Origin: a virus
Length of the DNA: 29,372 bases
Virus record (IMG/VR): IMGVR_UViG_3300017956_000084
Location: 1 to 29,372 of that record
Reading direction: 5' to 3' (one strand)
Position numbers and translations under genes: made by a program. This document shows positions 5,652-21,708 of this stretch, one piece after another (within the stretch, counting starts at the first letter, position 1; each line of letters begins with the position of its first letter). The notes beneath the pieces are model-generated. The model was not told the origin of the DNA. It searched no databases and saw only the letters and a list, made by a program, of their open reading frames with translations.

Positions 5652-8600
5652 ATGGCTAAGGTAAGTTCAAAGTTACCAGAGTTTTTACAGAATCCAAAAC
5701 TGAAAAACTTTTTTGATGGCACAGTAGAACAAGCATTTTCAAAAGCCGACAATGAAAAAGTTACTGAATGGATTGGTAGAAAATACGGCACATATTATAA
5801 TCCTTTCAAAGATAATTACAAGCCCGAAGATAACAGCTTAAGAAAGAATTATCAATTAGAAACCACAGCCGCATTAAAAAATCCTGACAATCTACTAACG
5901 TCAGATTCTATATTTTTTAACGAAGCTCTTGATTACATAGTAAATGAAAATGGAAAAATTAATAATCAAAATAGATTGTTTGGTCAAGAATATTATACAT
6001 ATTCTCCACCTATTGATTATGATAAATTTTTAAATTACGAAAACTATTATTGGTATCCAAGTTTAGATACTGGTGTTCCGAGTGTTGTTGTTTCAGGAAC
6101 TACTGAAACATTTACAGCAACAAACAGCCAAGATTTCACATTAGAATATCCTATATCAAGTAACGATGAAGTAAAAGTTAACGGAACACTGATTTCAACG
6201 TATACATCAACCGGATTAAATTTAACTATAAGTAGTCCAACTTTATCCGCAGGCGATAACATTTCTGTATTACATAAAATCGATCCAGATGATATCGTTG
6301 GTTTAAAAATTTATACATCACCAAACGGAATTACGTTCACATCAGGTTTATTAATTGAGTTTTCATCAAACTATCTTTCAAATTCAAGTTATGCAAACAA
6401 AAGATATTTTGTTGAAGGTGTTAATAGCAAAAATGGTATTGAATTTGTTGAAACCAGTGACGAAACTGAATTATTTTTAGATGAAGAGTTTCTTCCATGG
6501 GATCCGGCTGAAGATCAAGGAACAACATCAACAACAGATGGATTTGATTCAAATAGATGGGATACTGTTCCTTCAATTCAAAATCCTGACTATATTACAA
6601 TTGAAAGAGGTTGTACTGACAAAAATCCATGGTCTCGAACTAACGGTTGGGTACACAAAGATGTTATTACAGCATATAAAAACTTTCAAGAAGAAGTAAC
6701 CGTATATCATCCTTTTGATAGTGTTACAAGTTCTATCAGTGGTTGGGACGATGGTTACTGGGATAGCACAACTGAATTTCAACCTTCAATATTTCAATTA
6801 GATATTAGCAGAAAAGGTAGAAGACCTATTATCGAATTCAAAAAAGATATAAAACTTTATAACTACGGAGAAAAACACACACAAACAGTTGACGTGTTGT
6901 CTATAGAAGACACAATTGATGATATAACAGGAGAAGCAAGTTATAGAATTGATGATATTGAATTACGCGATGGTATGAAAATATTGTTTATTAATTCAAA
7001 CTTTGAAACAACACTAACACCATGGGATGGTGATAGTTATCCATGGGACCATGACAGTGATAATAATCCTTTAACGCCAGTTGAAGATGATGGCGACATT
7101 ACAACAACGTCAGGACTAACAGGCGGTGACGTTGGTTGGGATATCTCCGGTACCGACTTTGATGTTTCAAGTTCAATATGGCAAGTGTCAGGAGTAGGCT
7201 CATCTATAACACTTACAAAAGTACCCGGCGTTACTATTGATGATTATAGTTTAGTGACTATTAGACTTGGTGCAGTGAACGCCGGCAGAGAATACTACTG
7301 GACAGGATATGCATGGCAAGTATCACAACAGAAAACTTCTTTAAATCAATCACCATTGTTTGCATTATATGATAGTAACGGCAAGTCATTAGACGATTCA
7401 ATTACATATCCATTATCAACTTTTGTTGGTAATAAAATATTTGGCTATAAAATAGGCACAGGCGCCACTGATTCTGTATTAGGATTTGCACCTTATTATG
7501 TAGGATATAATTCGGTTAGTAACTACCAATTTGAAAACTTTTTAAACACTGATTCTAGTATAAATGGATTCAAGTATTATAAACAATTTGATTATAAAAA
7601 TATTTTAAAAGATACAATTGAATATGATCTAGTAATTAATCCAGACTATACATCTTCTGCTAACAAAGTTTATATAGAAAATATAAAACAGCAAACATTA
7701 AATTTACAAAGAGGAAATTCTTATAAATTATTATTAAATGACAGTTCGTTTAGTTCAAACGGGTTTTCAAAAACATATCATCCTGTATTGATAAGTTTAA
7801 CAGACGACGGAGTACACAACTCGGGCACAGTTTATAATACCGGTGTAAAATATTATCTTGATAATGTTGAAGTAACAGAAACGGTTTTTAAATCTAGTTC
7901 TTTTAACACAGCCAAAAAAAGATACATCGAAATTAATCCTACAGCATCAACTCCTGACACATTATATTATTTCTGTAATACACATCCTGGCATGGGAGGA
8001 AAAATAAGTTTATTAGATAATCCTTATTCTACTGTTGCTGAAAAAACAGAAACAAATTATTTTAACGAATGGAGATCAGTTGAAACAAAATCAAAACAAA
8101 AATTAATTCAAGAATTTGAAACTGACGAATATTCTATCAAAAATAATTTTAAACTTGATACTATTGTAGCAAGTGATCAGTCCGTGCAAGTATATGTTAA
8201 CAACAAACTGGTATCAAACTATACAATTAATTTTGGGCAGTTTATTAAATTTAATAGTGATTTAGAAAATCATCAACATATTTTAATAAAGTATGATACA
8301 AATGATGTTGATACAATACTAACATCAGCCTATCACGAAGTGCCAAAAAACTTGTCTAATAACTCACAAAACAAAGATGTAGTTAGTTACAGTTATAGTA
8401 ATTTCTTAGATCATTTTGCTTCTGGTATACAAAATCAGCATAATCTTGTAGGACTTGCACTAGGTAATAACACATATCGAGACACTAGAAAAGATTTAAA
8501 TTTATCTACTGAAATTTTACAACACAATGCACCGTTACTAAAATTTATGACCCATGTTAACAGTGATGACAGAAATATTGTCAAGTCTGTTAGATATGCA

Positions 8601-11600
8601 CAAAGCGAATATGTAAGATTCAAAAATAAATTTCTTCAGACACTAGAAGCAGTTGATAGAGAAAACGACACTGGAACATGGTCCGGTAAACAGCTTGTTG
8701 ATGCCACACTAAAGAAAATGAATACCAATAAAAAACTAATCAACAATTGGTCATATAGTTTAATGCTGTCATATGGCGAAACAGGAAAACGTACCACAAT
8801 TACTATTGATTCTACAAATAAAACATGGAACAATGATACATCAACTGTAACGCAGAACTATCAAGAAATTTTAAATCTTGTAGGTGCACCTGGATTAGAG
8901 TTAGATGTTAGTTATAATCCAGTAACTGATAAAGACATTAAATCTTTATATGTTTACAAGAATAATGTAATTCAATTAATGAACGTTGATTATGTTATAG
9001 ACAATTCCGCCGGTACAAAAATTGTGTTTATTGGTGCTGATAAACCTGTTATAGGAGATAAAATTCAAGTTGATTATTTTGATGTAAAACAACCTGCGTG
9101 GATTCCAGCAACACCATCAAAATTAGGAATAAGTCAAGTGTTTATTCCACAAGAAATATCTGATACATCATATTCTGCAGGATCGCAAACATTTATTCAA
9201 GGACATGATGGTTCGTTGACTTTAAAATACAACAACTTTAAAGATACAGCACTATTAGAGTTAGAAAAAAGAATTTATAACGACATTGAAGTTAAATTTA
9301 TTGATCCAGATTATGTTCCTTTATTATCTTACGATCATGTCTTTGGAAATTATTTTAATAAAAAAGATTACAATTACGAAGAATTTGTTCAAGCAATTCG
9401 ATCACATGCATATGATTGGGGTGTAAAAAATGAAGTAGAAATGAGATTAAACAAAACGTATGATTCAACTGATTGGAAAACATGGAATTATTCTTCTGTA
9501 AAAAATATTTCAAACGATCCTACTCCGGGACATTGGAGAGGTATATTTAAAAAGTTTTACGGTACGCACAGACCACATTCACACCCATGGGAAATGTTAG
9601 GATTTAGCATTAAACCAAACTGGTGGGATGACACATATTCATGGACTGATGTTGATAAAAGAAATAGTTTAATTAATGATATTGAACAAGGTATTATCAA
9701 ACTTGGTAGTCGAAGAAATAATTTAAAAAATGAGTATGCTGATAAATCTAATGTTTATAGACACGATGGGTTTACTAATTATGTTCCTGTTGATTTGCAA
9801 GGACAATTAAGAAGTCCAAAGGATATTGGATTGATTTCGGTTAATCCTGTTTCAACAGAAGCTAAAAAAGACTGGAAGCTAGGAGATCTATCACCAGCTG
9901 AATTGGCTTTTGTTATTGACAGTTCTTATGCGTTTGCTATGATGAATGTGATGCTTGTAAGCAAACCAGCTGAATTTTGTGAAACAATGTTTGACACACT
10001 AAATGTCGATTTTGCTAACATAAACAAAAAACAAAAATTTTCAAAATTAACAAATAAAAGGTTAAACAACAATGTATATGTTCATAGAGAAATATCTACA
10101 GATAGCAAAGTAGTAGTTGGTTACGGATACAATCAATATGTTTCTGAAAGATTAATATCACAGACTAAAAATGTTTTAAATTTATATGGTGGTATTATTA
10201 GAAATGTAAATCCACAGTTGGGTATTAAACAAGCATCTTATATAGATTTTGATTCATACAGAGTACAAGCAGAATCATATTCACCAACATCGTCAACTTC
10301 AAGTATTTTCTTACCAGATAACAACGTGACAACATTTGTACACACTAGCGAAGCTGTTGGTAAAACTGCATATTCTGGTGTTATCATTGAAAAAACAAGC
10401 AACGGTTATAAAGTGCATGGATACGATGCAGGTGCAAACTACTTTAATGTAACAGAAAGTGATATAAATGGGTTAAAAGCACCAGTTGTAGTTGGAGCAA
10501 AGCCAATTAATGTTCCAGCATATACACCAGGTAATAGTTTAACATCTGGAGATTATATCAAGTACGAAGGACAAATTTATAAAGCAGTTAAAGATCATAC
10601 AACCGGTGATAAATTTACACCAAGCAATTATCAATCTGTTGCAGAAGCGCCAACAGAGGGTGGAAAAAAAGTTACATATTATAGAAACGTTGTTAACGAT
10701 TCAATTAAAATAGTTGAATACGGAACTGAGTTTACATCAGAACAAGAAGTATTTGATTTTATGATTAACTGGGGAAGATACTTAGAAAATCAAGGTTGGA
10801 TATTTGATGTACAAAATAACAGAATTAGAGAAACATATGACTGGCTATACTCTGCAAAAGAATTTTTATTTTGGAGTCTAGGTGAATGGGCAGATGGCTC
10901 AGTACTAACATTATCACCTCTTGCATCTGAAGTTTCTTTTGAACCTAAAAAAGGTATTGTTGCTAATGTTGAAGATATTATCGGTAATAGCTATGCTATT
11001 CTTAATAGATCGGGTATGCCAATTGATGCCGCAACTACAACAGTGATTAGAGATGGTAGAAAAGTAACTATTACAGAAGACAACAATGATCCAATTTACT
11101 TTGTTAATTTGTTTACTAGAGAAATTGAACATGTTACTGTTTTTGACAATACTACATCATTTGGAGATGTAATTTACGAACCGGTACTTGCAATTAGACA
11201 ACCAAGATTAAAACAAACAGTTTTAAGATCAACAGGCTGGCTTGGTAAGTTAGAAGCAAACGGTCATTTAATTACTACAAGCGGTATTGTCAGTAACTTT
11301 GACACATCAGCAAAAGATATTCAAACATATCTTGATGTTGATTCAACTACAAACAATGATGAACTTAATAAAGCTGGGTTACACACAATTGGCTATCAGT
11401 CTAGAGATCACTTAGATAACTTAGAAATCATTGATGAAAATCAAGTTAGATTTTATCAAGGGTTTGTTAAACAAAAAGGTAGTAAAAATGCAATTGATAG
11501 ATTGTTAAGAAGCAACACAGTTCTAGACAATCAAGATATTAATATCTATGAATATTATGCTATTAAACTTTCAGACTTTGGTGGTAACGATATTAATCAA

Positions 11601-14600
11601 TCAATTGAAGTAAAACTCAGCGATGAAGAAATTAAAACCAATCCGCAAATAATCCAATTCTTACCTAAAAAAGATGATGTAGTTACAACCGATATAAAGA
11701 CCGATAACATTATTACAATAGATGTTGATGATAATACAAGATGGGTTAAAAAACCAAATGGCAATAAAAACTCTGAAGAACTTTTTGCAACAAGACCAGA
11801 GTCATTTGAAATGCCAACTGCTGGGTATGTACATTATAAAGATGTTAATGCAAGAGTGTTTACAAAAACAGACTTAGACAGTTATTATAAAAATAATCAT
11901 TCATCAGGAAGTATAAACGAAGGACATTTAGTATGGGTAGCAAAAGATAATTCAACAGAGTGGAATGTTTATAGATTCACAGAAGTCTCACAGGCCATTG
12001 AATCAGTAACTTCAACAGAACCGTTTACTGTTACATTATCAGAACCAACAAAATTATTAACAATACACGGTGATTCAACAAATTTAATTTTAGAAAAATC
12101 AAATATAGCCGATCAGAGTATCACAGCTGATACATACGGTGATAAAACACTGACACTAAATTTACAAGATCAATCTGTGTCAAAAACATTTGAATTTGCA
12201 AATGTTGGTGGTTCGGGTGCAGATGTTGTTGCCGGCAATGTTGCAGATCAAGTACTTGAAATGATAGTAACTACAGCAGGCTCAGGATATTCAGTTGGAG
12301 ACAGCGTTGAAGTTTCTGGATCGGGTGGATCATCTGCAACAGGTAATGTTACTGCAATTGATATGTCGGGTGGTATAACAAACATTGCCGTTGTATCAGG
12401 TGGCGCAAACTTCTTTGGCGAACCTGGTGATATATCAATTAAAACAGCCGGTGTTGATTCTGCCGGAGTAGGTGCTGTTATTAGATTTAAAGGTAATAAT
12501 CCTACGTATCAAATTAACACAACTTTATCTAGCTCAGCCACACCGTTTACAAAAGGAGAAACAATCACAGGTAGTGTTAGTGGAGTTTCTGCAACTATTA
12601 TAAATGTGTACACAGACGGAACAACTACAATTTTACATATTAACGGACATACTGCAACACCAGTTGCAACTGATGTGTTTACAGGCGGTACATCTGGCGC
12701 AGTATCAACAGGAACAAACACAATCACAGCAAGAAGCTTGGCATCTTATGGCGACTCAACATTTGGTGCATTACTTGATTTAGAAATTAACAATGGCGGC
12801 ACAGGATATCAAAGTCCAAGTATTCATGTTTCAGGTACAACACCAGCACAAGGTATACTTGAACAGACTTCCGGTGTAATTGATAAAGCATATATAACTG
12901 ACGGCGGTTCTGGATATAGATTACAATTTCCTGAAAAAGCAGATGTTGAAATCGCAATCAAAGATACAGTATTAAATGCAAACGTTGATTTTGCTGACAG
13001 TTTATTAAAATGTGATACAGTATCAAATGTTGTTGTTACAATTAATGAAGCATTTGACGGCACAGGTCCTACAATTAATTTAGGATCAACTGCAAATACT
13101 TCTTTACTAATTTCAACACAAAGTTTATCTGCAAATGCTACAGTAACTTCTTTTAATAGTAATATAACTGATAGATCAAACACAGCATTAAGATTGAGCT
13201 TTAGTGCCACAAATGCAACAACAGGTAATGCTACAGTTACAGTTAATTACAAAAAAGCATTATACAATATTTCAGAACTTGATGGAAGTGCTACTACTAT
13301 AACAGCAAATGATTTATCAGGTGGTACACATGCTTTATATAAATGGAAAGATGTAAGACTTGCATCAAGAAACAACGGAGTTGATCAAAGCAATGTTGGT
13401 TCTAGTTTATCTGCAACTGTAAATGATTTTGTATCAAATGTTTGTTCTGATGTAACGTTTATTGATGGAGACAAAATTTTCTTAGACAATGGCGGCAACA
13501 ACAAATGGTATACAATGACTATGACCACAGATGCTTCTGTAAAAACAGCATACGACATTTTAGCAAGTAACAGCAACGTAGACTCAAGTATTACAATTGG
13601 TAGCAATTATTGGATTATTAATTCTGATGTTGACTATACAGCAACAACACCAAACCAAACACTGTTTAATACTACAAAAAGAATGCAACACACTCAAGTA
13701 AATTCAGCACTGTTAAACAGATCGAGAATTTATAACAACTATGAAGGTGACAACGAAGTTGATTTAGAAGTGTTTGATCCAATTAAAAATATCTACCCAG
13801 GTGTTGCAATGAGAGAATTATCTTATATAAGAAAAACAAATCCTGCGGTGTTTAGTAATACAGCAAACAACTCTATTAAAACAGCAAATGATTTAGATGT
13901 ATGGGGAGAAAATCAAGTAGGACAATTATGGTGGGATTTATCAACAGTAAGATACATTGAATATGAAAACTTTGATCAACAATATAGACTAAGACACTGG
14001 GGTTCGTTATTTCCAGAATCAACTATCGATGTGTATGAGTGGGTAAGCAGTACAAAAGCACCAAGCAGTTGGAGTTTAGACGGAACAGTTCAAAGTACAA
14101 CTGATTATGTTGTTGAAACTGAAACTGACAAGCAAGGCATTGAGCATACAACTTATTACTTCTGGGTTAAAGCCAGAACTGAAATTCCTGCGAACCATCA
14201 ACGAAATATTTCAGCATTGTCAGTACAAAGATTACTAAAAAATCCTACTTCTCAAGGATTAAGTTGGTACGCACCAGTATCAACATCAAGCATATTAGTT
14301 TCAAACATTGCAAGGTTTATTTCAACCGAAAATAGTGTTTTAAGAGTTAATTATAAAATCAAAGATCTTGATGTGCCAGTACACAAACAATGGTTATTGA
14401 TAAAAGAAAACGATCCTAATGCTTTAGTTCCTACTAGTGTATGGAATAAATTCACAGATTCATTATCAGGCCAAGATGCATCCGGTCTTGCTGTTCCTGA
14501 TACTACATTACATGAAAATATGAAGTATGGTAACACGGTTCGACCAAGACAAAGTTGGTTTAAAAATGTTCAAGAAGCAAGAAGAATATTTAGATACAAA

Positions 14601-16952
14601 GCTAATAACATTTTATCAAAAATTAATCTTGATCTTGAATATCCAAATTGGGATAGTAATATCAATACTAATACACTGTATGAAAAAGTTGACTTTTATT
14701 TAGATGGTTATAACAGTTCTTTAATTATCGATAGAATTGTCGACACAGCATCTGAAATTGACAAATCGGTTTTATCAAAAAATGAAGTTATTAAAGTAAA
14801 CATTGATAACAATTCTAAATGGGCCATTTACATTTACGGCAACAGAGAAAGTATTTTATCAGGTAATATTGATGTGGCAACAGATACAACAGAACAAGCA
14901 TCAACAGCCACAACAGGTGCATCAACCGGTAACATTTATTCTGCATCTTCACAGTCAACCCACTTAGATGATGAAGGTATAGATCCAGCTACATATGAAC
15001 TTGTAAGAGTTGCTACACAAACTAGCACAATGGAATTAAAACAAAACTTCTATTCAAGTACAGCAAGTGCAATAGAAATTAGAGAAATTATGAGCACATT
15101 GTATAATACAATATTACCTGGATCATATAAACAATCACTAAGTGAATTAATGTTTGAATGTATTAACTATGTGTTCACTGAACAAACAAACATTGATTGG
15201 ATTATCAAAACCAGTTATTTTGATGTTCTACAAAATGACAACAGTTTACAACAAAAAGTTTCGTATAAACCAGATACTTTTGATTTTGTAGAAAGTTATA
15301 TCAATGAAGTTAAACCATATCATGGTAAACTGCTAAACTTCTTATCTAAGAAAACAACAGCAATTGAAGAAGCTAATGTTGACATGGATGAATATTCAAT
15401 TAATATGAAAACCGATTTGGTATTTGATAGAGTTTCTAAAAACATTGAAGTATTAAGTTCCGGTACACCAGCTGAACAACTTGAAGCATTAAAAGCCAGA
15501 ACATCTTTAACAACTGTACCTGATGCATCAGCAATTGACAGAATAGCAAAATATTATTTTGGAGAACAGTTGGCTTCGTTAATTACATCAAATCCTGATT
15601 CTGTTGATGCATTTATGAAACAATTACATAATATTGTTTCTCCATTTAACGACTTAGACCTTGACAGTACACCTTTTACAATTAATGAAGAAGGAAATAC
15701 TGTTGGTATTGACAAACACAGATTTGACAACGACATTGGTTGGGATTCAGATGTACAACAAACAATATACAGATCATTATTCCAAAGAAAAAATTTATGG
15801 CAATCTGGTATAGCATACACAACCACAATTAATACAAATAGTTCAGGTGTTATTACATCAAATAGTTATGTACAATACAATGACATATCACATTTTGCAA
15901 ACTGGAGTGTGTCAAACACTTATGCTGTTGACGATTTGGTTGTGTATGATGATAGACTTTATAAGTGTAATGTTGCACACAAAAATCTTGCAAGTGAAAC
16001 TACTTTCCAAAACAGTAGATGGGATTTAATTGAAGATTACGTTTACTTTACAGCAAAAGATCATACATCATCAAGTAGTTTTGCTACAGATTATAATAAT
16101 GGTAATTGGAGTTTGATTACAATTAGTTTTGATGGTGCTGGTTTTATTAGACCACAGCATGAAGATCATCCACAAGAAATGATACCAACAAAAGTAAAAG
16201 AAACATTAAGTATCACTGCTATAACTTACGAACAGATGGCCACAGATATTGATGACATTGATAACGATGGCAACGTTACCGAAAGTCACGGTTATGGTGA
16301 TCAATATGCATTTAGAATTTTTTATGGTCATGATGGTAGAACAAGCTATCAAAGATTACCAAAAATTGCAGAAACCACATTGACAGCAAATATTGATACA
16401 AACGTTTCTGAGATAACTGTTGCAGATGCTTCTGTGCTTTGGGACACATTGTCTGTTCCGGATCCAGATGATTCAAGTACAACTATTGGCACAATTGATG
16501 TTGTTCCAGCAGGTGCAGTTAATAAAAACAATCCAAGCAGAATATGGATTGGTGCAGAGCTGATCGAATTTACAGGAATTAGTGGAAATACATTAACAGG
16601 AATTAGAAGGGGTGTACTTGGTACTCCAATATATAATCATACAACAACTGATGTTGTACGTTCTGCTAGTGTACAACATAATATACCAAATGCATCAGCA
16701 TCAGCAAGATGGAGTGCATTTGATCCAGTTGGGACCAAATTAATTGATAAAACAGTACAAGCAACATGGGACGCAACTGCTTGGGATAATGACGACGCTC
16801 CATGGGATGTAGCAACACTTGATCCATCAGAACAAGCAGTGTTTATCAGAGCAGGTAGTATCAGTAACTTTAACTTATATAATACAACATACGTTAAACC
16901 AGGCTATGCAACACCACAATCTGGTTTAACAGGATACTTTAGTGAAGAATAG
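5652..16952 (+). CDS. Giant baseplate/tail structural protein (VrlC-like, gp7 position)
   Basis: This 3766-aa protein follows gp6 where marine T4-like phages carry a very large virion protein (often called VrlC) and T4 has gp7/gp8. GGGAG 10 nt upstream supports ATG 5652. Visible parts, in order: a conserved-looking N-terminus rich in aromatic residues (to about 140); PWD motifs at 282, 457 and 464; a cupredoxin-like segment at about 690-790 with His710 and C775-N-T-H778-P-G-M781; a Trp-rich central region; a chitin-binding-like segment at about 1623-1665; glycine beads with GSGY/GTGY/GSGY at 2210-2213, 2383-2386 and 2419-2422; a conserved YINEVKPYHGKLLNFL near 3217; a second chitin-binding-like segment at W3418-W3457; and a beta-rich C-terminus with PWD at 3717. 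There is no signal peptide or membrane segment. It probably forms the outer baseplate and attaches fibres. The exact T4 counterpart is uncertain. Confidence 0.85.
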   Translation: MAKVSSKLPEFLQNPKLKNFFDGTVEQAFSKADNEKVTEWIGRKYGTYYNPFKDNYKPEDNSLRKNYQLETTAALKNPDNLLTSDSIFFNEALDYIVNENGKINNQNRLFGQEYYTYSPPIDYDKFLNYENYYWYPSLDTGVPSVVVSGTTETFTATNSQDFTLEYPISSNDEVKVNGTLISTYTSTGLNLTISSPTLSAGDNISVLHKIDPDDIVGLKIYTSPNGITFTSGLLIEFSSNYLSNSSYANKRYFVEGVNSKNGIEFVETSDETELFLDEEFLPWDPAEDQGTTSTTDGFDSNRWDTVPSIQNPDYITIERGCTDKNPWSRTNGWVHKDVITAYKNFQEEVTVYHPFDSVTSSISGWDDGYWDSTTEFQPSIFQLDISRKGRRPIIEFKKDIKLYNYGEKHTQTVDVLSIEDTIDDITGEASYRIDDIELRDGMKILFINSNFETTLTPWDGDSYPWDHDSDNNPLTPVEDDGDITTTSGLTGGDVGWDISGTDFDVSSSIWQVSGVGSSITLTKVPGVTIDDYSLVTIRLGAVNAGREYYWTGYAWQVSQQKTSLNQSPLFALYDSNGKSLDDSITYPLSTFVGNKIFGYKIGTGATDSVLGFAPYYVGYNSVSNYQFENFLNTDSSINGFKYYKQFDYKNILKDTIEYDLVINPDYTSSANKVYIENIKQQTLNLQRGNSYKLLLNDSSFSSNGFSKTYHPVLISLTDDGVHNSGTVYNTGVKYYLDNVEVTETVFKSSSFNTAKKRYIEINPTASTPDTLYYFCNTHPGMGGKISLLDNPYSTVAEKTETNYFNEWRSVETKSKQKLIQEFETDEYSIKNNFKLDTIVASDQSVQVYVNNKLVSNYTINFGQFIKFNSDLENHQHILIKYDTNDVDTILTSAYHEVPKNLSNNSQNKDVVSYSYSNFLDHFASGIQNQHNLVGLALGNNTYRDTRKDLNLSTEILQHNAPLLKFMTHVNSDDRNIVKSVRYAQSEYVRFKNKFLQTLEAVDRENDTGTWSGKQLVDATLKKMNTNKKLINNWSYSLMLSYGETGKRTTITIDSTNKTWNNDTSTVTQNYQEILNLVGAPGLELDVSYNPVTDKDIKSLYVYKNNVIQLMNVDYVIDNSAGTKIVFIGADKPVIGDKIQVDYFDVKQPAWIPATPSKLGISQVFIPQEISDTSYSAGSQTFIQGHDGSLTLKYNNFKDTALLELEKRIYNDIEVKFIDPDYVPLLSYDHVFGNYFNKKDYNYEEFVQAIRSHAYDWGVKNEVEMRLNKTYDSTDWKTWNYSSVKNISNDPTPGHWRGIFKKFYGTHRPHSHPWEMLGFSIKPNWWDDTYSWTDVDKRNSLINDIEQGIIKLGSRRNNLKNEYADKSNVYRHDGFTNYVPVDLQGQLRSPKDIGLISVNPVSTEAKKDWKLGDLSPAELAFVIDSSYAFAMMNVMLVSKPAEFCETMFDTLNVDFANINKKQKFSKLTNKRLNNNVYVHREISTDSKVVVGYGYNQYVSERLISQTKNVLNLYGGIIRNVNPQLGIKQASYIDFDSYRVQAESYSPTSSTSSIFLPDNNVTTFVHTSEAVGKTAYSGVIIEKTSNGYKVHGYDAGANYFNVTESDINGLKAPVVVGAKPINVPAYTPGNSLTSGDYIKYEGQIYKAVKDHTTGDKFTPSNYQSVAEAPTEGGKKVTYYRNVVNDSIKIVEYGTEFTSEQEVFDFMINWGRYLENQGWIFDVQNNRIRETYDWLYSAKEFLFWSLGEWADGSVLTLSPLASEVSFEPKKGIVANVEDIIGNSYAILNRSGMPIDAATTTVIRDGRKVTITEDNNDPIYFVNLFTREIEHVTVFDNTTSFGDVIYEPVLAIRQPRLKQTVLRSTGWLGKLEANGHLITTSGIVSNFDTSAKDIQTYLDVDSTTNNDELNKAGLHTIGYQSRDHLDNLEIIDENQVRFYQGFVKQKGSKNAIDRLLRSNTVLDNQDINIYEYYAIKLSDFGGNDINQSIEVKLSDEEIKTNPQIIQFLPKKDDVVTTDIKTDNIITIDVDDNTRWVKKPNGNKNSEELFATRPESFEMPTAGYVHYKDVNARVFTKTDLDSYYKNNHSSGSINEGHLVWVAKDNSTEWNVYRFTEVSQAIESVTSTEPFTVTLSEPTKLLTIHGDSTNLILEKSNIADQSITADTYGDKTLTLNLQDQSVSKTFEFANVGGSGADVVAGNVADQVLEMIVTTAGSGYSVGDSVEVSGSGGSSATGNVTAIDMSGGITNIAVVSGGANFFGEPGDISIKTAGVDSAGVGAVIRFKGNNPTYQINTTLSSSATPFTKGETITGSVSGVSATIINVYTDGTTTILHINGHTATPVATDVFTGGTSGAVSTGTNTITARSLASYGDSTFGALLDLEINNGGTGYQSPSIHVSGTTPAQGILEQTSGVIDKAYITDGGSGYRLQFPEKADVEIAIKDTVLNANVDFADSLLKCDTVSNVVVTINEAFDGTGPTINLGSTANTSLLISTQSLSANATVTSFNSNITDRSNTALRLSFSATNATTGNATVTVNYKKALYNISELDGSATTITANDLSGGTHALYKWKDVRLASRNNGVDQSNVGSSLSATVNDFVSNVCSDVTFIDGDKIFLDNGGNNKWYTMTMTTDASVKTAYDILASNSNVDSSITIGSNYWIINSDVDYTATTPNQTLFNTTKRMQHTQVNSALLNRSRIYNNYEGDNEVDLEVFDPIKNIYPGVAMRELSYIRKTNPAVFSNTANNSIKTANDLDVWGENQVGQLWWDLSTVRYIEYENFDQQYRLRHWGSLFPESTIDVYEWVSSTKAPSSWSLDGTVQSTTDYVVETETDKQGIEHTTYYFWVKARTEIPANHQRNISALSVQRLLKNPTSQGLSWYAPVSTSSILVSNIARFISTENSVLRVNYKIKDLDVPVHKQWLLIKENDPNALVPTSVWNKFTDSLSGQDASGLAVPDTTLHENMKYGNTVRPRQSWFKNVQEARRIFRYKANNILSKINLDLEYPNWDSNINTNTLYEKVDFYLDGYNSSLIIDRIVDTASEIDKSVLSKNEVIKVNIDNNSKWAIYIYGNRESILSGNIDVATDTTEQASTATTGASTGNIYSASSQSTHLDDEGIDPATYELVRVATQTSTMELKQNFYSSTASAIEIREIMSTLYNTILPGSYKQSLSELMFECINYVFTEQTNIDWIIKTSYFDVLQNDNSLQQKVSYKPDTFDFVESYINEVKPYHGKLLNFLSKKTTAIEEANVDMDEYSINMKTDLVFDRVSKNIEVLSSGTPAEQLEALKARTSLTTVPDASAIDRIAKYYFGEQLASLITSNPDSVDAFMKQLHNIVSPFNDLDLDSTPFTINEEGNTVGIDKHRFDNDIGWDSDVQQTIYRSLFQRKNLWQSGIAYTTTINTNSSGVITSNSYVQYNDISHFANWSVSNTYAVDDLVVYDDRLYKCNVAHKNLASETTFQNSRWDLIEDYVYFTAKDHTSSSSFATDYNNGNWSLITISFDGAGFIRPQHEDHPQEMIPTKVKETLSITAITYEQMATDIDDIDNDGNVTESHGYGDQYAFRIFYGHDGRTSYQRLPKIAETTLTANIDTNVSEITVADASVLWDTLSVPDPDDSSTTIGTIDVVPAGAVNKNNPSRIWIGAELIEFTGISGNTLTGIRRGVLGTPIYNHTTTDVVRSASVQHNIPNASASARWSAFDPVGTKLIDKTVQATWDATAWDNDDAPWDVATLDPSEQAVFIRAGSISNFNLYNTTYVKPGYATPQSGLTGYFSEE

Positions 16953-18366: not shown

Positions 18367-18396
18367 TTGACAATAAATAGAATTATAGGGTATAAT
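18367..18396 (+). promoter_or_regulatory. Composite sigma70-type and late-type promoter
   Basis: A perfect TTGACA (18367-18372) and a perfect TATAAT (18391-18396) are 18 bp apart, with the late-type motif AATAAATA (18372-18379) starting inside the -35. The sigma70 start would fall at about 18403, which is the ATG of the next gene. The late-type start would fall near 18385. It lies in the gap between two structural genes. Confidence 0.6.
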
Positions 18397-18402
18397 AAAG
18401 AT

Positions 18403-19047
18403 ATGCAAAACACAGAAAAACCAAATGAAACAGGCACAGTAAAAGTTCAAGGTCATGTGTTAATCACAGACAAACAAACTGGAGAAGTGCTTGTGGACAA
18501 GAAAAACGCAATTCACCATGGAAACATGGCATTTGTTATTGCGGCGGCCTTGTCACATCATACACTAAATGACTCAGGTATATATCATATGGGATTTGGT
18601 AATGGTGGTTCTGATGTGCTATCTACTGGTGCTATTAAGTATAAAAGCACCAACACTGGCTCTACAAAAGACAATTCTGCTGATTTATACAACCGAACAT
18701 ATCAAAAGGTTGTAGCAAAACCATCAGCTACAACGTCAGTACAGAGCGGTGACCCAAGCAACAATATTGAAGTAATAGCATCAACTGGTGCTTATACTGA
18801 TTTAAAAGTAAAATGTTTACTTGACTTTGGAGAACCCACAGGTCAAGATGCAACTGATAATGCAATAACTGATACCAGTTATGTGTTTGATGAGCTTGGT
18901 TTGTTTGCGTACTATCAAAATACTGCTAGTGGTACAATTGACATTGATCAGAGTTTAATGCTGTCACATGTTATTTTCCACCCAGTACAAAAGAGTACAA
19001 ATAGACAAATTGAGATTATTTACACAGTTAGAGTGCAAATGCAGTAA
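18403..19047 (+). CDS. Virion structural protein, 214 aa
   Basis: The open frame can be extended to a TTG at 18367, but that TTG is the -35 box of the promoter. I therefore start at ATG 18403 (MQNTEKPNETGTVKV). The N-terminal part VQGHVLITDKQTGEVLVDKK followed by NAIHHGNMAFVIAAAL (about 34-49) resembles a small structural protein common in T4-like phages, where a KTGEVLVDxxNAIHxxN pattern leads a beta-rich domain. The rest is beta-rich, with FDELGLFAYYQ and a final IIYTVRVQMQ strand. It probably belongs to the baseplate or the base of a fibre. No enzyme motif is seen. It lies between two fibre genes and ends 30 bp before the next. Confidence 0.7.
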   Translation: MQNTEKPNETGTVKVQGHVLITDKQTGEVLVDKKNAIHHGNMAFVIAAALSHHTLNDSGIYHMGFGNGGSDVLSTGAIKYKSTNTGSTKDNSADLYNRTYQKVVAKPSATTSVQSGDPSNNIEVIASTGAYTDLKVKCLLDFGEPTGQDATDNAITDTSYVFDELGLFAYYQNTASGTIDIDQSLMLSHVIFHPVQKSTNRQIEIIYTVRVQMQ

Positions 19048-20380: not shown

Positions 20381-21298
20381 ATGGCTTATCAACAAGGTGA
20401 TACAATTACTGCTAATGATTATAATACATTCATTGGCGATATTAATACGGTCATCGGTACTGGTAGCGGAGACTCTGGTTATGGCTTAACTGAAATTTCA
20501 ACTGTGGCGCAAGGAGCAACAATATCTGCGGCACAATGGAATTCATTACTTTCTGGTTTACAGAAAGCGGCTAATCACCAAGGATCAACTATTACCAATG
20601 CATCAAACACAGTAAGCACAGGCGGTAATATATTACCACTTTCAAACCTGGCTACTGATATTACAACAATTTCAACTAACAGATTAACAGCGGCAGGCGG
20701 AAACTTATCAACAGGCATTACAGGAACTTCTTCAACAAGAACAACTGCATGGACTGGTCAAATAATTCACGCTTTCACTGTAACGTTTGCATCAGAGAAT
20801 GCGGCTAGACATTTCTTCAACTCAGGTGGAGCAATTACTATGGCATTTTCAAGATCAGGCGGATCATCAACAGATCAAAACACTTCATGGACTAACTTAC
20901 TTTCAGGAGTAGGTACTGTGTCATTGGGTGCTACTGATACAACTGCCACAGTAGGTGGTACTAGTGTTGGATTCCATGATTTAACATCAACAGATCAAAC
21001 TATTTGTTCAAGCGATGTTGGATCAGGCGATTATGCGTTAAATGATCTACTTATCTTGGCTAAATCAAATGGTTCAGGTGTGGTAACAGTTACAATTCAA
21101 TTTAACGACGACCACGCGGCAGAAACTGGTACATACACAGGTGGCGGTCTAGGTACTGCACCAAATGAAGGTACAGGCTGGACAGGCACTGACTCTGTAG
21201 ATGGAACTGTAAGTTCAACTATTACATTTACAAAGGCGGACAATGCTTCATACGTACAAGTTGCAAGTCCAACTTTTGCAAATACTACAACATTATAA
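20381..21298 (+). CDS. Tail-fibre-like virion protein, 305 aa
   Basis: ATG 20381 begins one base after the stop of the previous fibre gene. The N-terminus (YQQGDTITANDYNTFIGDIN, then GTGSGDSGYGLTEIS) and the repeat-like QGATISAAQWNSLLSGLQK look like paired capping units. Similar YxxGDxIxAxDYNxF sequences start many marine phage fibre and tip proteins. From about residue 120 the protein is Ser/Thr/Gly-rich beta structure, including AARHFFNSGGAITMAFSRSG and a long acidic GxGTAPNEG stretch. It has no Cys-based or enzymatic motif. It is the last structural gene before the terminator hairpin at 21318-21357, so it closes the late transcript. It is likely a fibre tip or collar-like adhesin. Confidence 0.75.
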   Translation: MAYQQGDTITANDYNTFIGDINTVIGTGSGDSGYGLTEISTVAQGATISAAQWNSLLSGLQKAANHQGSTITNASNTVSTGGNILPLSNLATDITTISTNRLTAAGGNLSTGITGTSSTRTTAWTGQIIHAFTVTFASENAARHFFNSGGAITMAFSRSGGSSTDQNTSWTNLLSGVGTVSLGATDTTATVGGTSVGFHDLTSTDQTICSSDVGSGDYALNDLLILAKSNGSGVVTVTIQFNDDHAAETGTYTGGGLGTAPNEGTGWTGTDSVDGTVSSTITFTKADNASYVQVASPTFANTTTL

Positions 21299-21307
21299 TA
21301 TTAGTTG

Positions 21308-21336
21308 TTGACATTTTAAAGCCCTTCAGTTATAAT
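21308..21336 (+). promoter_or_regulatory. Perfect-consensus sigma70 promoter of the accessory cassette
   Basis: TTGACA (21308-21313) and TATAAT (21331-21336) are separated by exactly 17 bp, the ideal bacterial housekeeping promoter. A start near 21343 gives a leader of about 18 nt that keeps the GGAGG ribosome site (21348-21352). The -10 lies in the left arm and loop of the terminator hairpin. Confidence 0.8.
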
Positions 21337-21360
21337 TTAATATAATTGGAGGGCTTTTTT
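21318..21360 (+). terminator. 17-bp terminator hairpin ending the structural operon
   Basis: Arms 21318-21334 and 21341-21357 pair along all 17 positions (two G-U wobbles, outer AAAGCCCT/AGGGCTTT) around a 6-nt ATTTAA loop. A run of six T (21355-21360) follows. It lies 20 bp after the stop of the last fibre gene. The right arm also contains the GGAGG ribosome site of the next gene, and the T run ends directly at its ATG. Confidence 0.85.
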
Positions 21361-21708
21361 ATGAGCAACGAAAGACTAGAAAACGCATTAGAATTTGCCA
21401 ACTATAGGCAAACACTGGCAAACCAAAAAGCAAAACTACAAGATCAGTGTGAAGCACAACTAAACTTTGCTTACAACGGAGGTATGTTTTATATTACAGA
21501 ATCATTAATTGGTTTTGTTAATTCATATGTTTCAGACAGTAAAGATTCTATGTGTATATTAGATTCAAATAAAACACCAATTGAAATTACAGATTTGAAA
21601 GATTTTCAAACAAAAATTCAATCAAGGTATTTTGAATCAGTGAATGAATATTTTAGAAGTTATCAAGAACTGTCAACAAAAAGAAAAGTTAAAGCACTGG
21701 TGGAATAA
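21361..21708 (+). CDS. Conserved-looking hypothetical protein, 115 aa
   Basis: I start at ATG 21361 (MSNERLENALEFANYRQT) with GGAGG at 8-nt spacing. A longer reading from TTG 21346 would lie inside the terminator arm and is unlikely. The 115-aa product is alpha-helical. It has an N-terminal charged helix (ENALEFANYRQTLANQKAKL), a central NGGMFYITESLIGFVNSYVS and a C-terminal helix (RYFESVNEYFRSYQELSTKR). Similar small proteins occur beside fibre genes in T4-like marine phages as far as I recall, but I know no function. It is the first gene after the strong promoter and ends one base before the first glycosyltransferase. An assembly or chaperone role for fibres would fit the position, but that is a guess. 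Confidence 0.75.
   Translation: MSNERLENALEFANYRQTLANQKAKLQDQCEAQLNFAYNGGMFYITESLIGFVNSYVSDSKDSMCILDSNKTPIEITDLKDFQTKIQSRYFESVNEYFRSYQELSTKRKVKALVE

Follow-up and report, generated by a model that had tools for sequence, protein, structure and literature searches.

Two adjoining genes and a 56-bp element at their junction

The window analyzed in the present study, a 29,372-base IMG/VR viral record, derives from a marine phage, and the element described below is known in it computationally. Two plus-strand genes adjoin this element. The upstream gene (20381..21298), an open reading frame with counterparts in 35 related viral loci, encodes a fibre-like protein of 305 aa that matched no PHROG or Pfam family. 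The downstream gene (21361..21708) is the first of a cassette and encodes a protein of 115 aa, the structure model of which (mean pLDDT, 82) resembles DUF4376 domain proteins with an E value of about 5e-4, while a PDB fold search with this protein returned nothing usable. Judging from the model, the 115-aa protein is DUF4376-like, and nothing in the analysis points to an enzyme. The term "enzyme cassette", used in an earlier sequence-only reading of this DNA, consequently does not suit the first gene, although it suits those further downstream, which encode an RpiB-family isomerase, a radical SAM protein, and a subtilase. Elsewhere in the window, the structural module contains a single ORF of 3,766 aa (5652-16952). 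The nearest counterparts of the baseplate protein are in the jumbo myophages Salicola phage SCTP-2, PA5oct, GAP32, and Atu_ph07 (33-42% identity), and only this protein led to jumbo myophages; in named phages, DNA and tblastn searches with the junction found no relatives.

Direct reading of the plus strand at 21308-21363 shows that a promoter, GGAGG, a T run, and ATG share this stretch with a 17-bp hairpin. The -35 hexamer TTGACA (21308-21313), the TTGAC of which is invariant in 10 aligned relatives, is followed after 17 nt, within the 16-18 nt expected of a sigma70 promoter, by the -10 hexamer TATAAT (21331-21336), giving a consensus score of 12/12; from sigma70 geometry, transcription is predicted to start 6-8 nt past the -10, at 21342-21344. 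The hairpin, identified by sequence and folding, consists of a left arm (21318-21334) also marked by covariation, a loop (21335-21340), and a right arm (21341-21357), with 17 pairs that include two G-U. Four bases of the -10 lie in the left arm and two in the loop, and the right arm carries the Shine-Dalgarno GGAGG (21348-21352), located 8 nt 5' of the start codon ATG (21361-21363). The T run occupies 21355-21360; its first three T close the base of the stem by pairing with AAA, such that three T remain after the stem. The perfect promoter, the position of both arms, and the nesting of the -10 and GGAGG within the hairpin had all been described by the sequence-only reading, and are as it stated; its six T following the hairpin are present, but half of them belong to the stem.

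The hairpin alone has a predicted energy of -22.0 kcal/mol and, as a G+C-rich stem followed by a T run, possesses the features of an intrinsic terminator. Perfect promoters with 16-18 nt spacers number two in the window, whereas 200 dinucleotide shuffles gave a mean of 0.105; the single uninterrupted 17-bp hairpin had no counterpart in 6 shuffles. Current annotation divides such an element into separate features or overlooks it, as in the generic terminator scan of this window, the output of which lacked the hairpin at 21318-21357. No Rfam family matched in the window at gathering scores, which rules out a known riboswitch or leader RNA family.

The second perfect promoter, TTGACA-N18-TATAAT, is in the 18367-18403 region. 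Based on its sequence, this sigma70-type promoter could drive the fibre unit, and, therefore, RNA arriving from upstream need not be late. The "late read-through" assumed previously is doubtful for this reason, and also because TATAAATA was not enriched in related records: across 17 related records, its frequency did not exceed that of its reversed control, on which basis T4-type late promoters were rejected as the typical driver, and gene-upstream regions of three of these records showed no enrichment over the same type of control. Regarding the 18367 promoter itself, its first 13 bases, TTGACAATAAATA, are kept in six related loci (L036, L037, L039, L040, L045, and L048), and its spacer contains AATAAATA, which resembles a T4-type late promoter. 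Since the ATG at 18403 sits at the predicted start site, the RNA would be leaderless or nearly so.

Predicted fates of read-through and internally started RNA

When naked RNA was folded at 37 C, without ribosomes or kinetics, the opening of GGAGG cost 16.6 kcal/mol in the read-through RNA, in which the site is inside the stem, and 0.8 kcal/mol in RNA started at 21342-21344. These predictions agree with the earlier view that read-through RNA buries the ribosome site and that RNA from about 21343 leaves it free. As judged by folding, the junction thus shows the contrast that characterizes T4 gene e, namely, a Shine-Dalgarno sequence that is paired in the long RNA and free in the short RNA.

We consider the element to probably be an insulated gene start, from which the downstream gene is expressed solely by its own promoter. 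The sequence suggests that the hairpin folds in RNA arriving from the fibre gene, with the 3' end falling in the T run, and the transcript of the 305-aa gene would accordingly end at the hairpin. Any read-through RNA that escaped would, by the folding prediction, retain GGAGG in the stem and be poorly translated, and RNA initiated at about 21343 by the internal sigma70-type promoter would have no left arm and no hairpin, leaving GGAGG exposed. Since the hairpin is predicted to bury this site in read-through RNA and internally started RNA to expose it, the downstream gene would use its own promoter alone. It is highly probable that the element works as a terminator and promoter, two activities that we infer, and we lean towards the view that the hiding of the ribosome site has itself been selected. 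Furthermore, a polymerase arriving from upstream crosses the promoter before the terminator forms, and, thus, promoter occlusion would be expected under strong upstream transcription, making the upstream and downstream units partly exclusive. To state that the gene ignores read-through may, therefore, be too weak a description.

The contrast between long and short RNA, for which T4 provides a precedent (PMC3014915), is also what a pure translation switch of the gene e type, without real termination, would produce. We regard such a switch as very improbable because a stem of this stability is joined to a T run, and because a separate terminator occupies this place in relatives that have lost the nesting.

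Conservation and replacement among relatives

Loci for comparison were gathered by homologues of the fibre gene (35 loci) and by homologues of the 115-aa gene (8, later 80). The whole element was kept, with the same gene order, in L036-L041, L043, L045, and L048-L052, in which TTGAC, the -10, the hairpin, GGAGG or AGAAGG, the T run, and ATG were all present. Among relatives with 45-60% protein identity in the downstream gene, the hairpin was maintained by compensatory changes, the evidence that the sequence-only reading had suggested seeking in related phages. The arm sequences diverge yet pair, with 91.5% of cells paired across 11 sequences and 15 pairs, and 7 of the 15 pairs were changed on both sides. 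The covariation score was 0.513 versus 0.05-0.17 with the partner slid, in an alignment (A3) that leans towards structure because it was made by hand from the arms, with the loops and one bulged base of the L049 group omitted and the distant L222 included.

A dyad that spans the -10 and start site is in the usual position of an operator, and the hairpin may accordingly be viewed as a DNA site for a repressor bound between the -35 and start site. This interpretation is extremely improbable: pairing is kept while the arm sequence varies, the G-U pairs fit RNA and not DNA symmetry, and T follows the stem in all nested relatives.

The arrangement is not a genome-wide habit of these phages. An energy-based scan of five long related records (328, 243, 108, 69, and 60 kb) yielded 133 terminator-like hairpins; a hairpin nested with a -10, ribosome site, and start codon occurred once per record in all five, always before the 115-aa gene, and this single occurrence rules out such a habit.

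Nesting has been replaced in L042, L044, L046, and L047, although their protein shares 92-95% identity with its counterpart in the nested loci L049-L052. These four loci have the same gene order and carry a separate terminator (AGGGCGGCAACGCCCTATTTTTTT) with an un-nested promoter immediately after it, and, thus, the terminator and promoter functions appear to have been kept even though nesting was lost. The ribosome site was clearly hidden in L044 (11.2 versus 0.4 kcal/mol), whereas hiding in L042, L046, and L047 was weak or no better than in shuffles; in the folding comparison, this set is numbered L219, L213, L217, and L218. The loss of the stem at loci with a conserved gene order, which the sequence-only reading had held to count against it, is observed in these four loci, while the loci listed above keep the stem. 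Four same-order loci without the nested stem, with hiding clear in one, lower our confidence that hiding is essential.

These loci bear on an explanation by economy only, in which the terminator was merged with the promoter of the next gene to save space. The G-rich right arm would then serve as a ribosome site by chance, and, with termination being sufficient, the hiding of the site would be a side effect of little consequence. We consider this to be rather unlikely. The ribosome site being hardly hidden in three of the four separate-terminator loci is in its favor; however, among distant homologues, the group that includes L219, L229, and L263 hides the site without a T run, and the 115-aa gene is by far the most hidden gene in three long records. 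Its opening cost is the largest among the 168, 107, and 42 Shine-Dalgarno genes in these records, with values before the 115-aa gene homologues of 12.5-16.7 kcal/mol versus a mean of about 2. The distant homologues that hide the site without a T run are L227, L229, L263, L266, L270, and L273, with L219 added in one listing; the hairpins of the former six begin upstream of the predicted start site, and spacer shuffles matched their hiding in 0-3% of cases. In a large distant group (L224, L231, L232, L247, L258, and others), a TTGACA promoter is conserved, but no hairpin hides the site. The 115-aa gene seems to usually have its own promoter, with the insulating device differing among lineages.

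Other motifs were noted at related loci. A perfect dyad, e.g., GTTTGCATGCTA-ACTAC-TAGCATGCAAAC, precedes a distant homologue of the 115-aa gene in L055, L057, L059, L060, and L065, with ATG in the right arm and no clear Shine-Dalgarno sequence. The motif AGATAANTA or TATAAATA recurs in the loop of the hiding hairpin in L220, L222, L239, L249, and L263, and is perhaps a late promoter of these phages. Strong early-type promoters resembling TTGACA-N16-ATGCTATTAT are present in L159-L175 (G017) and L176-L188 (G004), several of them within L165 (about 118-138 kb of G017) and L176 (the first 20 kb of G004).

Recurrence in other phages and relationship with known systems

Viral contigs and cellular genomes were scanned with the pattern TTGAC-N17-19-TATNAT-N4-28-GGAGG-NN-TTTT, counting matches followed by a start codon and an ORF of at least 30 aa; the comparison is restricted to proportions among the matches listed. 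A place was regarded as nested when opening cost at least 8 kcal/mol and at least four of the five GGAGG bases paired upstream of the predicted start. Nesting was detected at 36 of 91 viral places (19 of 59 ORF families) and 4 of 99 cellular places (3 of 84 families); the difference between viral and cellular families gave a Fisher value of 5e-6, counted with 85 cellular families. A viral control with AAAA in place of TTTT had 1 nested place among 98 (1 of 77 families). This association of nesting with the T tail, 36/91 versus 1/98, is also in line with economy only. Shuffled spacers attained 8 kcal/mol in about 3-5% of cases, and the median opening cost at nested viral places was 15.8 kcal/mol in the long RNA versus 1.8 in the short RNA, among the matches listed.

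The genes behind nested elements included a 5'-3' exonuclease, supported by tblastn, a relative of the T5 D2 protein, and Krischvirus ModB, and, by eye, others resemble dUTPase, dCMP deaminase, and UV endonuclease. A T4-late-type version, with TATAAATA overlapping the left arm, was found at 9 of 57 places (8 of 49 ORF families), the shuffle control for which is compromised by the possibility of the hairpin falling entirely between the promoter and GGAGG. In L664, L669, L672, L690, and L710, terminator hairpins have TATAAATA overlapping their left arm and GGAGG in their right arm, before a start codon; the L710 element precedes a 517-aa ORF resembling the terminase gp17 by eye. A match to GGAGGGCTTTTTTATGA does not by itself identify the element, as most of the 34 stretches with this sequence were short-loop terminators without a promoter or real gene start; exceptions are L015 and L022, in which a 67-aa ORF is preceded by an independent nested element. 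We tentatively propose, as a possibility falling somewhat short of an even chance, that the three-in-one element has evolved repeatedly in phages as a general device that is rare in cellular genomes, exists in sigma70- and T4-late-type versions, and makes adjoining units exclusive by termination, site hiding, and promoter occlusion.

A description of a triple overlap of terminator, promoter, and ribosome site was not found in the open-access literature, in which it seems to have been undescribed so far. The start of modB in the Krischvirus phages GEC-3S, ECD7, and kaaroe is similar, with an annotated TTGACA-N17-TATTAT, a GCCTCC/GGAGGC hairpin, and T6 before modB; it differs in a shorter stem that begins just past the -10, and is likewise only predicted. 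Since phage genes as unrelated as those for a 5'-3' exonuclease, a dUTPase-like protein, and ModB, among others, have this layout upstream, it may be found by pattern, tested in E. coli phages, and used as a ready-made insulator.

The closest known mechanism is that of T4 gene e. In T4 genes e, soc, 49, and I-TevI, the long RNA hides the Shine-Dalgarno sequence in a hairpin, and RNA from a late promoter inside or beside the left arm, being without the 5' strand, is open to translation (PMC3014915). The window element shares with gene e a site that is hidden in the long RNA and opened by an internal promoter. However, its promoter is of the sigma70-type TTGACA-N17-TATAAT, not TATAAATA, and we did not assign it to the gene e class because of this difference; moreover, its hairpin doubles as a terminator with a T run, and the account of the T4 genes (PMC3014915) mentions no terminator. 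The element resembles an intrinsic (rho-independent) terminator in its G+C-rich stem followed by a T run, and differs from it in that the hairpin also contains the -10 and ribosome site of the next gene. The element thus combines, in about 56 bp, an intrinsic terminator and a T4-style ribosome-site hairpin, each of them a textbook device.
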